Shown here piece after piece: positions 19,366-25,016 of a stretch of DNA of 64,000 bases (positions within the stretch are counted from its first letter, which is position 1; every line of letters begins with the position of its first letter). Source of the stretch: Tumebacillus algifaecis. GTDB lineage: Bacteria > Bacillota > Bacilli > Tumebacillales > Tumebacillaceae. The notes under the pieces are model-generated. The model had not been told where the DNA came from. It made no database searches and was given only the letters and a program-made list of their open reading frames with translations. The stretch spans positions 4,155,001-4,219,000 of the forward strand of contig NZ_CP022657.1 of assembly GCF_002243515.1 (NCBI RefSeq), given 5' to 3'. The position numbers were made by a program, and so were the translations under genes.

Positions 19366-20605
19366 GGGGTTCCCCCTTGCGCAACGCGTACAGATTCAGA
19401 CCGAGCGTTGCGAGCGTCAAAAACGCGTAGCCTACGGTCATCGCGATCGCGGCGCCCATGATGCCTTGCACCGGGACAAGCCACCAAGAGAGGGCGGTCA
19501 CCAGCGCTGTCATCAGAGCAAACAGCGGGACCTGCGCTTTGAACAGGCGAGCGGCCGTCGCACCATACCAGAAGATTGAGGACAGGTTGGAAATGCCGGA
19601 ACCGATCATCAGAACGAGCAACACATCTGCGTGCAGCGCGTACTCCGGCCCATAGGACAGCTCCAAAAATGTTGCACCGAACAGCCAAGCGCACAAGACG
19701 CCAAACGCTCCGATGCCAGCACCGAGCGCGGTCAATTTGAGCAACAGCTTTTTGAACGCGGTGCGATTCGTTTGAAAGTAGACGGCGAGCCGTGATGAAG
19801 CGGTCTGCCCGAGCGCGTTGATGATCGTCTGGTTCGCCAACCACAAGTAGGCCAAAGCTGCATAGATGCCAAGCTCGGCCACGCTCCATGCATGTTCAAT
19901 AAAATAGCGAGGCACGTTGAAGTTGAGATTGGTCAGCAAGGACGCGATGCCCATCGGCAGTGCCAGTCGCGTCAACATCCACAGGCGTTGGCGCTGGAAA
20001 GCAGGCTTGGTGCCAAACGGTTCCGGAGCGGCCAAAGCGAGCCGATTGCCATTTTTCGCATCATATAGGAGAAGGCTGACCAGCCACATCACCGCCTGAG
20101 CGGTGACAGCCCAAACCACAGAGCCTGTAGCAAACAGACAGATCACAAACAAGATCAAGGTACCGACGCCGCGCAACACCAGCGATTTGGAGATGAGATC
20201 CATCCGCTCTCGCTGCTGAAACAACCCGTAATACACGTCGGAAACCGCTTCAAACGCTTTGGCCAAGCCAACGAGCAAGACCACATACGCGGTGGTCGGG
20301 TCATAGCCAAAGAGGACGGTAAGCACGGCGATGACGACGAGTGACAAGAGCGCCATCAACAGCCGCAACCCGAGATAATCGGCAAAAAGGTAGGTCCGCT
20401 TGGCGTCTGTCGCTTGTACCATGCGCAGCTGTAAATTCAAAAACAGCACCACCGGCGCTGTCAGTGCCAACCCCAGCGCATACTGCCCGACCATCTCCGG
20501 ATTCCCTAGCTGTGCCAAGGCGACCATCATCCCCCACTGACACACCGTGTACCCCAGATTACCCGCGAGCGTCCAAGAAAAATTGCGTCGTAACGAGAAT
20601 CCCAT
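19331..20605 (-). CDS. Wzx-like oligosaccharide flippase
   Basis: This 424-residue membrane protein has about twelve helices and fits the MOP/Wzx polysaccharide flippase family. It starts with FSLRRNFSWTLAGNLGYTVC, the usual N-terminal amphipathic stretch plus first helix, and has the paired helices GTLILFVICLFATGSVVWAV and IGAFGVLCAWLFGATFL. It would move the undecaprenyl-linked repeat unit across the membrane for the polymerase. It is the first gene of the ten-gene minus-strand operon, about 100 bp from an extended -10 promoter. The start site has only a weak purine-rich ribosome site (GAGAAGAAG). Confidence 0.85.
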   Translation of the reverse strand: MGFSLRRNFSWTLAGNLGYTVCQWGMMVALAQLGNPEMVGQYALGLALTAPVVLFLNLQLRMVQATDAKRTYLFADYLGLRLLMALLSLVVIAVLTVLFGYDPTTAYVVLLVGLAKAFEAVSDVYYGLFQQRERMDLISKSLVLRGVGTLILFVICLFATGSVVWAVTAQAVMWLVSLLLYDAKNGNRLALAAPEPFGTKPAFQRQRLWMLTRLALPMGIASLLTNLNFNVPRYFIEHAWSVAELGIYAALAYLWLANQTIINALGQTASSRLAVYFQTNRTAFKKLLLKLTALGAGIGAFGVLCAWLFGATFLELSYGPEYALHADVLLVLMIGSGISNLSSIFWYGATAARLFKAQVPLFALMTALVTALSWWLVPVQGIMGAAIAMTVGYAFLTLATLGLNLYALRKGEPHDESATIVSAN

Positions 20606-20714: not shown

Positions 20715-20782
20715 TATCCCCCAAAGAATTCTGTGATAGATTCGTGAGTTCTCGACAAATAGTTAAAATGACTTTATTTAAA

Positions 20783-21099
20783 AATGTAACTATATGCAAT
20801 CATATTTTTGTAACGGACTTACTCTGTCCCCTATATTAACATCTATGGAAATTAAGGATGTTTTTCCTCCTTGTTCTACAGGTCACCTCCTACTCAAGAA
20901 AGTCTGATTCTCACGCAGTTACATTTCACCACAAAATATTATCATTTAATTATTTCGAATTTGTCTTTTGTGTAGTTACATTAATAAAAATCATTTGCTA
21001 AATATGTAATCATCTGGTAAAATAAAAAACGAAGGGGCTGACATAAGTTCTAAGTTCAGTTCCCTCTCCTATGATCCATAACACGGAGGTGAGTTACAT
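20783..21099. promoter_or_regulatory. Four copies of AGTTACAT around the peptide promoter
   Basis: AGTTACATT occurs at 20917-20925 and 20974-20982, inverted at 20783-20791, and AGTTACAT recurs at 21092-21099 just before the peptide ATG. The ~490-bp gap between the flippase and the peptide gene is AT-rich, holds no convincing longer gene, and carries divergent promoters. The repeats may bind a regulator of the peptide cassette; chance in AT-rich DNA is possible. Confidence 0.3.
20995..21023 (+). promoter_or_regulatory. Promoter of the peptide/radical SAM cassette
   Basis: TTGCTA (20995-21000) and TAAAAT (21018-21023) are 17 bp apart, the best sigma-A-like pair in the gap. The predicted start near 21030 leaves a leader of about 70 nt before the 27-codon peptide gene. 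Confidence 0.6.
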
Positions 21100-21181
21100 G
21101 TCATTGCTGGCACAGGTAAAAACAATCACTGCAAATGTAGAACGCACTCGTAACGAAACTAACAACATCAACATCAATTAA
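21098..21181 (+). CDS. 27-residue peptide, candidate RiPP precursor
   Basis: The short frame begins ATG after a strong GGAGGTGA site six bases upstream and encodes MSLLAQVKTITANVER followed by TRNETNNININ, then TAA. The N-terminal half is amphipathic (a possible leader) and the C-terminal half is Asn/Thr/Ile-rich without Cys (a possible core). It is followed by a hairpin and then by a B12-type radical SAM gene and an exporter, the standard order of a ribosomally made, modified peptide. Codon choice and ribosome site argue for real translation. Product class, cleavage site and modification are unknown. A regulatory leader peptide for the downstream gene is the alternative. Confidence 0.72.
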   Translation: MSLLAQVKTITANVERTRNETNNININ

Positions 21182-21194
21182 GAATCGGGAGGGA

Positions 21195-21249
21195 ATGCTG
21201 CTCGTTCTGCTCGCGACATCTGCGACACGGAACGAGCAGTATCCTTTTT
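21195..21249 (+). terminator. Intercistronic terminator/attenuator hairpin
   Basis: A 13-bp stem (21195-21207 with 21230-21242, one G-U pair; core CTGCTCGTTC/GAACGAGCAG) carries an inner 4-bp helix (TCGC/GCGA) and is followed by CCTTTTTC. It lies between the peptide gene and the radical SAM gene, so it should let most transcripts stop after the peptide and give precursor excess over enzyme. Confidence 0.85.
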
Positions 21250-21268
21250 CAAAAGGGAGGTTTTCAGG

Positions 21269-23497
21269 ATGAGCACACTCTTGTTATATCCACCGATCAC
21301 TGATCCAACCTCAGGCTATCACAGCTTGATTTACCTAGAAACGTACGCCCGTCAACAAGGCTTCCAAGAAATTGACATCATCGATACGAACATCGAGGCG
21401 TTTTTATATACAATGACTCCCAACCAAATTGAACAGATCAAACAACACATCCGTATGCGACGCGAGCAATTGGAGTCTCAGGTGAACTTGGATGCGGCCG
21501 AACAGATGGAGCTTTTGCACCTGTGGAAGTCTGAACATTTCAACTTCGACAGCTTGCAAACTGCCGTAGCCACATTGCGGGATGAGCGTGCTTTCTACGA
21601 TTATTTCCAATACCGTCCTGCTGCCGAACTACTCTCAAACTGGCTCAATGTTTTGTCTGTCCTCGGATATCCTGGGCAATTCGCAGGGTTTAGCCTCTCG
21701 ATCCGTTCGCAATTCAATTTGATGAGTTCAAACGACATGAGTGATCATGAAATTACGAAACGCGTCACACAACCTTTTGTTCCCTACTATCAAGAAATAC
21801 TCTTCCCGCACATCCGTGACAAAGGCTACAAAACGATCGGTATTAATGTAACGTACTGTGCACAGCTGCCCTTCGCACTCGCGCTCGGTCGCATGATCCG
21901 TGCAGAGTTCCCGGAAACTATCATCCTGTACGGCGGCACAGAGGTCGCCGATGTTTGGAAGTACCTCACTCACAAATCAGAGTTCTTCACCATCTTCGAC
22001 GTAGCCGACGCCTGTGTTGTCGGTGAAGGGGAATCTGCCTTCACTAGCCTGCTTCGCATGGTTGAGGAGGGAGGAAATTTCAGCCCGCTCGCCAACACGT
22101 TGTTCCATCCGAAACATGAGCTGGCAGCCCCTGAAGAATTGATCGTGTACCAACCGATTCATGATTTGCCGACCCCGGACTATAGTAAGTTGAATTGGGA
22201 TCTTTACCTGTCGCCTCACCCCTATGTCTACTACTCTCCATCACGGGGCTGTTATTGGAACAAATGCACCTTTTGTGACTATGGATTGAATTTCGATTCT
22301 CCGACCAGTCCTTGGCGTCAAACTCCCTTGGACAAAATCGTGGAAGACCTGAGAGTACTCTCCAGACAGTATAAGCACATCTATTTTTCAGTCGATGTAC
22401 TTGCACCCGCCCTCTTGTTGAAGTTGGCCGAACGTCTGCTCGAAGAGAAGATTGAGATTCGCTGGGGTGCTGAGATTCGGTTGGAGGAATATTGGTCCCC
22501 CGAGCGATGCAAACTGCTGAAAGCAAGCGGGTGTACCGATATTTCTGTTGGATTTGAATCTGGCAATCAACGAATTTTGAATCTCATCAACAAAGGTACG
22601 CAAGTCATGAAAATTCAAGAAACCATTCAGAATTTCTACGATGCGAACATCGGGGTTCAGGTGATGGGTTTCACCGGTTTCCCTACTGAAACGCTCGAAG
22701 ATGGCTTAGAGTCGGTTCAGTTTTTGCATGAGCATATTGAGAAGTGGACATTTGGCGGTTTAGGAACGTTTGTCTTAACACCTGGAGCGATCGTCGCCAA
22801 AGAACCTGCCCGTTTTGACCTACACAACGTCGGTCCTTACCAAGGGGAGGACATCGTCCGCCAACTGCATTTTGAAAATCCCTCCGGTCAGAGCCTAGCC
22901 GATCAGGACACGTTGAACGAAGCGAAGAAAAAGTTAGTAAAAAACCATTTTGATCGACCTTGGGTTGGGGGAATCGATACCGGACATACGATGTTTTACC
23001 ATGATCGCTATGGAACAGAAATAGTCCGTGTCCTGCATGAAGGTGATCATACGGCCAGCGTGGAAGAGGTCTACACGCTTAACGGGATGATCGCGGAAGA
23101 TATCCCGCATTTCCCGGTTGAGTTCCTGTTCAGTGGAGGCAATTTGGATGATCTGCACCACGTATCTACCAACAAACAAAAAGGCTTGATGCATCATGAA
23201 ATTCAAGCTCTGCTCCGAGAGCGCACGTTACAGCGGGCAGACTCGGTGACTGAACTCCGCCGCTATTTCATCAAAAATGATGGGACCCCGTTCCCATTCC
23301 CAGAAGCGATGATCGATTTCTTGACGCATTTCTCGTCGCATCGATCGCTCAGCGATCTGCTGCCTCAATTGCCAGAGGAACTTCGAGAGGTGTACAGAGA
23401 GCTATGGGCGCATAGTGTGGAGCATCATTTTATCCGTCCGCTGACCCAGTACGATCAGCAACCGATCCCCACAACTCACGAGCTCACAACTTCCTAA
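21269..23497 (+). CDS. B12-binding-type radical SAM enzyme, CX4CX2C motif
   Basis: This 742-residue protein has a Rossmann-like N-terminal region (about 1-280), resembling the cobalamin-binding domain of B12-dependent radical SAM enzymes, with ILYGGTEVADVWKYL near 213 and VVGEGESAFTSLL near 245. The clear DxHxxG cobalamin-ligand motif is absent. The radical SAM core starts near 325 with SRGCYWNKCTFCDYG: the cluster cysteines are spaced CX4CX2C rather than CX3CX2C. It continues with SVGFESGNQRILNLINKG and VMGFTGFPTET. The last ~60 residues (FLTHFSSHRSLSDLLPQL) look like a winged-helix, possibly a peptide-recognition element. Context makes it the likely modifying enzyme of the 27-residue peptide; the reaction (C-methylation, epimerisation or other) cannot be told. 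Confidence 0.85.
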   Translation: MSTLLLYPPITDPTSGYHSLIYLETYARQQGFQEIDIIDTNIEAFLYTMTPNQIEQIKQHIRMRREQLESQVNLDAAEQMELLHLWKSEHFNFDSLQTAVATLRDERAFYDYFQYRPAAELLSNWLNVLSVLGYPGQFAGFSLSIRSQFNLMSSNDMSDHEITKRVTQPFVPYYQEILFPHIRDKGYKTIGINVTYCAQLPFALALGRMIRAEFPETIILYGGTEVADVWKYLTHKSEFFTIFDVADACVVGEGESAFTSLLRMVEEGGNFSPLANTLFHPKHELAAPEELIVYQPIHDLPTPDYSKLNWDLYLSPHPYVYYSPSRGCYWNKCTFCDYGLNFDSPTSPWRQTPLDKIVEDLRVLSRQYKHIYFSVDVLAPALLLKLAERLLEEKIEIRWGAEIRLEEYWSPERCKLLKASGCTDISVGFESGNQRILNLINKGTQVMKIQETIQNFYDANIGVQVMGFTGFPTETLEDGLESVQFLHEHIEKWTFGGLGTFVLTPGAIVAKEPARFDLHNVGPYQGEDIVRQLHFENPSGQSLADQDTLNEAKKKLVKNHFDRPWVGGIDTGHTMFYHDRYGTEIVRVLHEGDHTASVEEVYTLNGMIAEDIPHFPVEFLFSGGNLDDLHHVSTNKQKGLMHHEIQALLRERTLQRADSVTELRRYFIKNDGTPFPFPEAMIDFLTHFSSHRSLSDLLPQLPEELREVYRELWAHSVEHHFIRPLTQYDQQPIPTTHELTTS

Positions 23498-23506
23498 GAG
23501 ATTGGA

Positions 23507-24784
23507 ATGTTCCCAATGTCCTCACTTTCTGCTGGATTGGGCAGCCTATTTAGCAACCGGAATTTTCGAAATCTTTGGTTTGGACAGACTATCTCCTCTT
23601 TCGGCGATGTCGTGTACAGCATTTCGATTTCGTGGTACGTGTTTGAACAAACAGGCTCGTCCATGCATGTGGCACTATTACTCGTTGCAACCTTTTTGCC
23701 TGAAGTGATCTTTGGCATGTTCCTCGGAGCCCTTGCTGACCGCTGGAATCGGAAGTTGCTGATGCAGATCGCAGATCTGTTTCAATTTACAGCAACCGCT
23801 TTGCTTGCCCTCTCCTTTTGGTTCGGCACATTTGCACTGTGGCAGATCTATCTGGTATCGATTTGCTTATCGCTAGGAAAGTCACTTTTCTCCAGCTCAC
23901 TCACTGCATGGCTACCTGAAATCGTTGAAAAGGAGCAGTTGCTGCGCGCCAATTCTCTCATGTCTACATCCAAGCAGGTCAACCGCTTGTTCGGCGCAAC
24001 GGTCGGAGGGATCCTGATCGCTTGGGCGGGCGCTATTGTCACAATTGCGATCGATTCACTTACCTTTTTGGTCTCCTTGGGATTTCTCATGATGGTACGG
24101 TACCGAGTGAGTGAATCACTCGATCGGAAGACATCTGACACCTCGATTTGGGCCGATATCAAGGTAGGCCTCCGCTGGATGAGCAAGCAGCCGATCATCC
24201 TCCTGCTCGTCGTGATCGGGATGATCAGCAATGTGGCACTCGGGCCGACCAACGTGCTACCCCCGATGTATATTCAGGTGGAAATGCAGTCGGATGCCAG
24301 TGCGTTGGGTTTGTTCGATGCTGCGATCGGACTTGGTTTATTACTCGGCGGTATTTTGATCGGTGTAGTTTCCCCGCAAAGAATTGGCAGATGGTTTATC
24401 GGCGGTCTCGGAATACAGGGGCTAGGCATGATGCTCGTAGCACTAGCTCCTGCGCTGCCAGTCGCTTGCATCGGTAACTTCTGTATCGGCTTTGCGGTGA
24501 TGATGTCAGCCTTGCCACTCGGAACGCTGATTCAAGTGCTGACACCTTCTGCCATGCGAGGTCGGGTTGGTAGCGTAATGTCGATCGGTCTATCCTTGGC
24601 CATCCCGATCACTTACGGGGGGATTGGCGTTTTGGCTGCGCAGATCGGATCGAGAATGACGTATGTCCTTGGCGGTGGTCTCTTGCTAAGCTGCGTACTG
24701 CTAGGCATCCTCAACCCGCGATTGCGAGGCTACAGCCTAAACCAAGCTCCTGTCTCTACTCCAACCGTTGAACAAAGCGCCTAA
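23507..24784 (+). CDS. MFS exporter (MefA/EntS-like)
   Basis: This 425-residue transporter has twelve predicted helices and matches the MFS_3 group (MefA macrolide efflux, EntS siderophore export), which pump small molecules out with protons. The cytoplasmic loop signature between helices 2 and 3 reads GALADRWNRKLLMQIADL, and the second half opens with NRLFGATVGGILIAWAGAI. It begins nine bases after the radical SAM gene, with a weak ribosome site (GAGATTGGA) and an alternative ATG at 23516, so it is probably coupled to the enzyme gene. Export of, or immunity to, the modified peptide is the natural reading. Confidence 0.9.
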   Translation: MFPMSSLSAGLGSLFSNRNFRNLWFGQTISSFGDVVYSISISWYVFEQTGSSMHVALLLVATFLPEVIFGMFLGALADRWNRKLLMQIADLFQFTATALLALSFWFGTFALWQIYLVSICLSLGKSLFSSSLTAWLPEIVEKEQLLRANSLMSTSKQVNRLFGATVGGILIAWAGAIVTIAIDSLTFLVSLGFLMMVRYRVSESLDRKTSDTSIWADIKVGLRWMSKQPIILLLVVIGMISNVALGPTNVLPPMYIQVEMQSDASALGLFDAAIGLGLLLGGILIGVVSPQRIGRWFIGGLGIQGLGMMLVALAPALPVACIGNFCIGFAVMMSALPLGTLIQVLTPSAMRGRVGSVMSIGLSLAIPITYGGIGVLAAQIGSRMTYVLGGGLLLSCVLLGILNPRLRGYSLNQAPVSTPTVEQSA

Positions 24785-24816
24785 AGGACATCTCATACGG
24801 GATGTCCTTTTTTTGT
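24783..24816 (+). terminator. Terminator of the peptide cassette
   Basis: A 10-bp stem AAAGGACATC/GATGTCCTTT with an 8-nt loop leads into a T run, directly after the MFS stop. The following ~200 bp up to 25016 hold no gene I can support. Confidence 0.93.
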
Positions 24817-25016
24817 GTACACTATTTTTGAAACTTGTGAACCTTTTCCAGATCTCAAACGTACTATCTTTGAACTCATCTGTCTGTTTCTAAACGCCCG
24901 CAAGCATGTCCATAATCGCTGGTTTTGGGCATCTGAGGATTGATTCAATGCCCGTTTCCGACGCTGTTCTACCTGTTGTTCGCCCGAAAAATATTTCGCA
25001 AAAGGAAGTGACGTTC

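Follow-up and report, generated by a model that had tools for sequence, protein, structure and literature searches.

The window analysed here, a 64,000-nt stretch of the Tumebacillus algifaecis genome (GCF_002243515.1, NZ_CP022657.1, positions 4,155,001-4,219,000 of the forward strand), lies on a single complete chromosome of 4.5 Mb, whose relatives are Tumebacillus species. On its plus strand, a compact cassette is arranged in the order of precursor gene, hairpin, radical SAM gene, MFS gene, and terminator (Table 1). The co-directional 27-codon gene, hairpin, 742-aa radical SAM protein, and MFS_3 exporter that an initial annotation had read from the letters were all found where it had placed them, as were the strong ribosome site of the short gene (GGAGGTGA) and the terminator-like hairpin at the cassette end. 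The single upstream promoter of that annotation is less secure; one promoter-like site is indeed present, but such sites occur in the region at chance level (7 found vs 5.9 expected). Because the upstream neighbours form a minus-strand gene block ending near 20605, and the downstream neighbour, an unrelated hydrolase gene from 24906, is split off by the terminator, the cassette stands alone. An Rfam search of the region gave no match. The AT-rich segment 5' of the cassette (20750-21020) carries repeated TGTAAC/GTTACA words, which are perhaps operator sites.

Table 1. Features of the cassette, with positions counted from the first nucleotide of the window.
Feature	Position	Strand	Basis
Promoter-like site, putative	20995..21023	+	TTGCTA-17-TAAAAT, TG ahead of second hexamer
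Ribosome-binding site GGAGGTGA of precursor gene	21085..21092	+	Sequence
RiPP precursor gene, 27 aa	21098..21181	+	Homologous short ORFs in T. avium, T. lacus, Paenibacillus, and others
Hairpin, precursor-enzyme intergenic	21187..21249	+	Folding vs shuffles
Cobalamin-dependent radical SAM enzyme, 742 aa	21269..23497	+	Profile matches, predicted fold
B12-binding domain, residues 180-261	21806..22051	+	PF02310 below cut-off; fold match to OxsB, TsrM, TokK, MgmA
Radical SAM Cys motif CYWNKCTFC (CX4CX2C)	22250..22276	+	Alignment
C-terminal RRE-like winged-helix domain (predicted), residues ~601-724	23069..23440	+	AlphaFold model and VIA-align list
MFS_3 exporter, 425 aa	23507..24784	+	Pfam/NCBIfam matches; related MFS gene adjoins enzyme in 9/9 Bacillota clusters
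Intrinsic terminator at cassette end	24783..24820	+	Terminator-like hairpin 24783-24810

The precursor peptide of the window, MSLLAQVKTITANVERTRNETNNININ, is laid out as a leader, MSLLAQVKTITANVERTRNE, followed by the Asn-rich end TNNININ (core codons 21158-21178), and it contains no Cys; NCBIfam and Pfam searches with this peptide returned no match. None of 1000 dinucleotide shuffles produced, upstream of the enzyme, an ORF that combines a ribosome site with four or more Asn among its ten C-terminal residues; the same filter misses the precursors of P. spiritus (one Asn) and T. flagellatus (fewer than four Asn in the last ten residues). Decay of the peptide frame between relatives had been named as an observation that would refute the RiPP reading, and no such decay was seen in the T. 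avium copy, (M)SLLAQVKAVTVAVESTRNATNNINIKG, which keeps the frame. This copy differs from the window by nine synonymous codon changes and nine others, two of the latter being the start codon and an extra terminal codon, and codons 21-26 (TNNINI) carry synonymous changes only. In T. avium (G002, L091:2812-5825), an insertion of ~3 kb interrupts the enzyme gene, and the peptide now ends in NINIKG; this copy of the cassette is therefore probably dead. The insertion contains minus-strand ORFs resembling transposition genes. With such a decayed relative at hand, the window cassette might be thought to hold a real precursor and yet be decayed or silent in this strain; however, none of its three frames is broken and the enzyme retains every invariant residue, leaving this explanation scarcely credible.

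The hairpin that follows the precursor gene has a folding energy of -36.5 kcal/mol (z = -4.4 vs shuffles) and a T-rich tail. Strong intergenic hairpins likewise follow the precursor gene in T. lacus (z = -7.3), Paenibacillus tengchongensis (z = -4.0), and G224, a genome close to Paenibacillus (z = -2.3), and that of P. spiritus is GC-rich and not beyond shuffles. T. avium keeps the window stem arms CTGCTCGTTC/GAACGAGCAG, and the lowest-energy fold of its whole interval differs; the hairpin sequences otherwise differ among the clusters, which fits an element that sets a ratio rather than a specific regulator. By inference, the hairpin probably controls the peptide:enzyme ratio, acting as a partial terminator or by stabilising the mRNA.

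The enzyme matches Radical_SAM (PF04055) over the Pfam cut-off and B12-binding (PF02310) below it (25.0 bits; cut-off 32.1), and its best NCBIfam match is TIGR03975, at 104.9 bits vs a cut-off of 281.85. The Cys triad is invariant in the homologue alignment. The spacing CX4CX2C was rejected as a family-specific mark because it recurs in a paralogue of 26% identity encoded by this genome, and its invariance is partly due to selection, since the contig scan was seeded with the Cys-motif peptide itself; this second B12-type radical SAM protein lies outside the window (G000:C1:3988817-3989800; L099:4383-6320, minus strand). In an AlphaFold model computed from 32 homologues (mean pLDDT 90), residues 1-595 align to OxsB, TsrM, AprD4, TokK, CysS, and MgmA (Z 17-22), and the two marks of a cobalamin radical SAM enzyme, the Cys triad and a B12-binding Rossmann domain, are thereby predicted in one chain (OxsB/TsrM fold match, Z 21). 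A full-length MetH is encoded in the host genome, so the host uses cobalamin.

When folded alone, the C-terminal part of the enzyme is predicted to form strands and a winged helix, and its structural neighbours are mostly RREs; residues 601-724 match TigE (Z 8.3), TbiB1 (7.8), lasso B1 (7.3), MccB (7.1), PqqD (6.5), CteB (6.5), and PbtF (6.2), with TruD/LynD and ThcOx as further neighbours at Z 6-8. Pfam gave no match on this domain alone, which makes the RRE reading a structure-only one, and a Foldseek search with it gave no significant E-value (above 0.1). Any single Z is modest, but so many RREs agree that coincidence is an unlikely cause, and the modelled domain thus resembles an RRE. The enzymes of the aroma-sacti branch, described below, have a different, shorter C-terminus.

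The search for homologues of the enzyme covered the relatives, 399 genomes of the class, and the GTDB contig set. All eight other Bacillota homologues (about 50-70% identity) are accompanied by a short precursor gene, the end of which is Asn-rich in seven clusters and Asn-poor in one; these ends include TNNNNNNN, NNNININ, NNVNNIH, NNNVIC, and six exact TNNNVC repeats. Besides T. avium, precursors are encoded in T. lacus (MDLNNLLSEVEGITSEIEQVQLIDDTNNNNNNN, the core being pure poly-Asn), P. tengchongensis (MKREEEELLLSIMNITEECGAIFSPDNNNININ), G224 (MKKEEQELLAAILEVTEEFDSVTTRGNNVNNIH), P. spiritus (MSREELEMLTHILEVTEEREVQPAPPSNIVIIQ, with the core SNIVIIQ and its single Asn), T. flagellatus (MNKNLEQEILELEETLADEVFGEQKTNNNVIC, on the opposite strand), G003 (MTKLEQEILAIEAELAGELSGEAQ followed by six exact TVPTQNTNNNVC copies, a multi-core precursor that is also on the opposite strand), and Halobacillus (MANTPLLENETEGIDFAEFEEVVELNRDYSLASAADTNNCNC, at the operon end). 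Enzyme homologues without a short ORF had been named as the other refuting observation, and this test too is passed, a short precursor being present in all eight clusters. The expectation that a short Asn-rich ORF precedes each homologue does not extend to the Asn-poor core of P. spiritus, to the strand of the gene in T. flagellatus and G003, or to its place in Halobacillus. The Cys-free, Asn-rich core that had been claimed is true of the window but describes only one branch, as sister branches end in Cys. Near several relatives (L029, L069, L066, L072, L079, L080, and remote ones), no precursor was recognised.

In Actinomycetota, the enzyme homologues (36-50% identity) stand beside precursors of other leader types, which can sit kilobases from the enzyme gene. 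Those of Micromonosporaceae have an NHLP-like leader, end in DNNVNIIAVLIL and similar sequences, and occur with YcaO; those of Streptomyces and kin carry the aroma-sacti leader (NF045560) and end in NQVNVLC, SNTNVVC, NNNNTVC, or NNNCLC; and those with Os-type NHLP-clan leaders end in DNNF, DNNI, or VNNNL. At L030:2408-2872, and likewise at other Micromonosporaceae loci, a second NHLP-type precursor ending in ACCCPCCCT adjoins the NNVN precursor and the YcaO gene, giving two different cores in one cluster. Two tandem aroma-sacti precursors with slightly differing Asn cores (GGNNNNCLC and NDNNNCLC) lie beside a single enzyme at L067:5235-5800 and L068:5246-5739, and a second B12 radical SAM gene follows downstream at L067.

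The layout of the window, i.e., a short Asn-rich ORF, a terminator-like hairpin, and then the enzyme gene, is also that of an attenuator, in which the ORF would be a regulatory leader peptide, stalling at its Asn codons would control the hairpin, and the enzyme would act elsewhere. Such control depends on a leader ORF lying directly upstream and co-directional, an arrangement that is met in the window but not across the family: the peptide gene is on the opposite strand in T. flagellatus and in G003 (there with its six exact repeats), it closes the operon in Halobacillus, and in Actinomycetota the peptides have true RiPP leaders and are sometimes kilobases away, and the enzyme itself has an RRE-like domain. 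Attenuation was rejected on gene order and strand as a general explanation, and it is regarded as very improbable. The RiPP interpretation that had been put forward is supported, on the other hand, by the short precursors beside all close Bacillota homologues, the kept frame, and the RRE-like domain; of the features expected of a RiPP system, a short conserved precursor gene beside a modifying enzyme is found in all nine Bacillota clusters, the window included, and an enzyme with a putative leader-binding domain is found at the fold level only, without binding data.

Since the Asn-rich tail had initially been picked using an Asn filter, the strongest support for its pairing with the enzyme comes from a count made without that filter and from a control within one genus. 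A search by leader sequences alone recovered an N(x0-2)N core in 42 of the 43 loci with a leader homologue, the single exception being a contig that starts at the enzyme. These loci are related within each lineage, and the independent evidence therefore amounts to four leader families sharing one core type, not to 42 cases; the leaders in question (the short Bacillota type, NHLP, aroma-sacti NF045560, and Os-type) are unrelated and share the N(x)N core and this enzyme family. For the genus control, aroma-sacti proteins were found in 29 of 150 Streptomyces genomes, and a close enzyme homologue in five of these 29. The precursors end in NxNV(L/V)C in all five, whereas the 24 genomes without the enzyme have tails of the EIAGGALF, GGVVW, HDLKLL, or CxC type and no Asn core (5/5 vs 0/24; Fisher p = 8e-6, uncorrected for kinship). 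The Asn core thus goes with the B12 enzyme and not with the leader.

Part of the family carries an accessory set that encodes a TIGR04463-like SPASM radical SAM enzyme and a CoaC-like flavoprotein of the HFCD type. T. flagellatus, G003, Halobacillus, Streptomyces ODS25, and the aroma-sacti clusters have both, and each of their cores has a C-terminal Cys. The window, T. avium, T. lacus, and the three Paenibacillus-type clusters have neither, and no core among these has Cys at its end. Among Bacillota, the set is present in 3/3 Cys-ending vs 0/6 non-Cys-ending clusters (p = 0.012), and about four changes are needed to place it on the enzyme tree. HFCD decarboxylase chemistry is established, and the simplest reading of this distribution is that the SPASM enzyme and the flavoprotein act on the Cys end, which would leave the B12 enzyme, shared by the clusters, to act on the Asn stretch that they also share. 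The sister clusters thereby recall sactipeptides and ranthipeptides (SPASM radical SAM, Cys thioethers), an identity that was rejected for the window, where a search covering 15 kb around the cassette found no SPASM homologue and the peptide contains no Cys. Two TldD/PmbA-type genes are present in each of the T. flagellatus and G003 clusters. The window cassette contains no protease gene, as had been noted, but the minimal pathway deduced from this absence applies to one branch only, and a distant TldD/PmbA-like pair, possibly the leader protease of the window system, is encoded elsewhere in its genome.

The best reading of the cassette is a new RiPP subfamily in which a B12 enzyme modifies an Asn-rich tail; the reaction is inferred, C-methylation being the most likely. 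The full scheme, which is judged probable, takes the cassette, its conserved frame, and the family-wide pairing of enzyme and Asn core from sequence comparison and the enzyme fold from prediction, and adds several inferred steps. The leader of the 27-aa precursor would be bound by the RRE-like C-terminal domain of the radical SAM enzyme, which would use cobalamin and SAM to modify the tail TNNININ; the leader would then be cut off by a protease encoded elsewhere, possibly the genomic TldD/PmbA-like pair, and the product would presumably be exported by the MFS protein, while the hairpin after the precursor gene would allow far more peptide than enzyme to be made. That the Asn-rich tail is the substrate is inferred with good confidence. 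That Asn is C-methylated is put, by analogy, at about an even chance; this reaction is preferred since methylation of sp3 carbon is common among B12-dependent radical SAM enzymes and is carried out on peptidyl Gln by MgmA, the methyl-coenzyme M reductase glutamine C-methylase. MgmA shares the cobalamin radical SAM fold (9ccb, Z 19.2) and also acts on a polypeptide, adding a methyl to the alpha-carbon of a residue with an amide side chain (PMC11796369); however, its substrate is a large enzyme rather than a leader-core peptide, and it has 417 residues, 16% identity, and no C-terminal RRE-like region.

Methylation is not forced by the fold, since B12 radical SAM enzymes also form cross-links (PbsB) and contract rings (OxsB), and the window enzyme could instead cross-link its core (e.g., by joining a carbon of Asn to an adjacent Ile, Val, or Asn) or epimerise it without methyl transfer. 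PbsB is such a precedent, as it forms C-C cross-links in a cluster for biphenomycin-like RiPPs that also encodes a TldD-type protease (PMC12257519); the non-methylating OxsB is among the top fold matches, and the Asn of the cores often alternates with Ile, Val, or Thr (NININ, NTN). Nevertheless, the known B12 cross-linker acts on phenols, PbsB joining ortho-Tyr in a FHAFRF core with an MNIO partner, none of which is present in the window, where the core has no aromatic residue, and the pure poly-Asn core of T. lacus is a further point against cross-linking, which remains possible but doubtful beside C-methylation. The RiPP C-methyltransferases of TIGR03975 (rSAM_ocin_1) are likewise cobalamin-type radical SAM enzymes of RiPP clusters, but the window enzyme stays below their cut-off, has the spacing CX4CX2C, and was seen with no DUF5825 partner beside it. 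The aroma-sacti peptides (NF045560) provide the leader of the Streptomyces members; however, their ends in genomes without the B12 enzyme are not Asn-rich, and this leader is unrelated to that of the window.

No curated family covers the window peptide, nor the enzyme over cut-off, and none of the open-access papers searched for Asn-rich cores, Tumebacillus RiPPs, aroma-sacti, and B12 radical SAM enzymes with TldD/HFCD describes the family (paywalled work was outside the scope), in agreement with the initial annotation, which knew of no described family with this peptide. For the family as a whole, the balance tips slightly towards a RiPP class across Bacillota and Actinomycetota, in which one B12 enzyme would iteratively modify consecutive or alternating Asn by a transformation not yet described (e.g., to beta- or alpha-methyl-Asn, or to Asn cross-links), with sister clusters adding C-terminal Cys decarboxylation or azole chemistry. 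The short C-terminal motif N(x)N, presumably the substrate, is now paired with an enzyme family of unknown reaction, and this pairing spans differing leaders and accessory enzymes; the natural combinations of the enzyme with four leader families show evolutionary swapping of RiPP cores and enzymes. Two genes, of 27 and 742 codons, suffice for a direct test of the chemistry; should the modification fall on an Asn carbon, the RiPP toolbox would gain a reaction on a polar, poorly activated residue.

In the Asn-poor cluster of P. spiritus, the MFS gene is followed by one that encodes an asparagine-synthetase-like protein (L048:9619-11460; TIGR01536, 512 bits). The C-terminal nitriles of nitrilobacillins are made by AS-like enzymes (PMC13060819), and by analogy the P. 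spiritus enzyme may possibly act on the SNIVIIQ precursor, although it could equally be a plain housekeeping enzyme.
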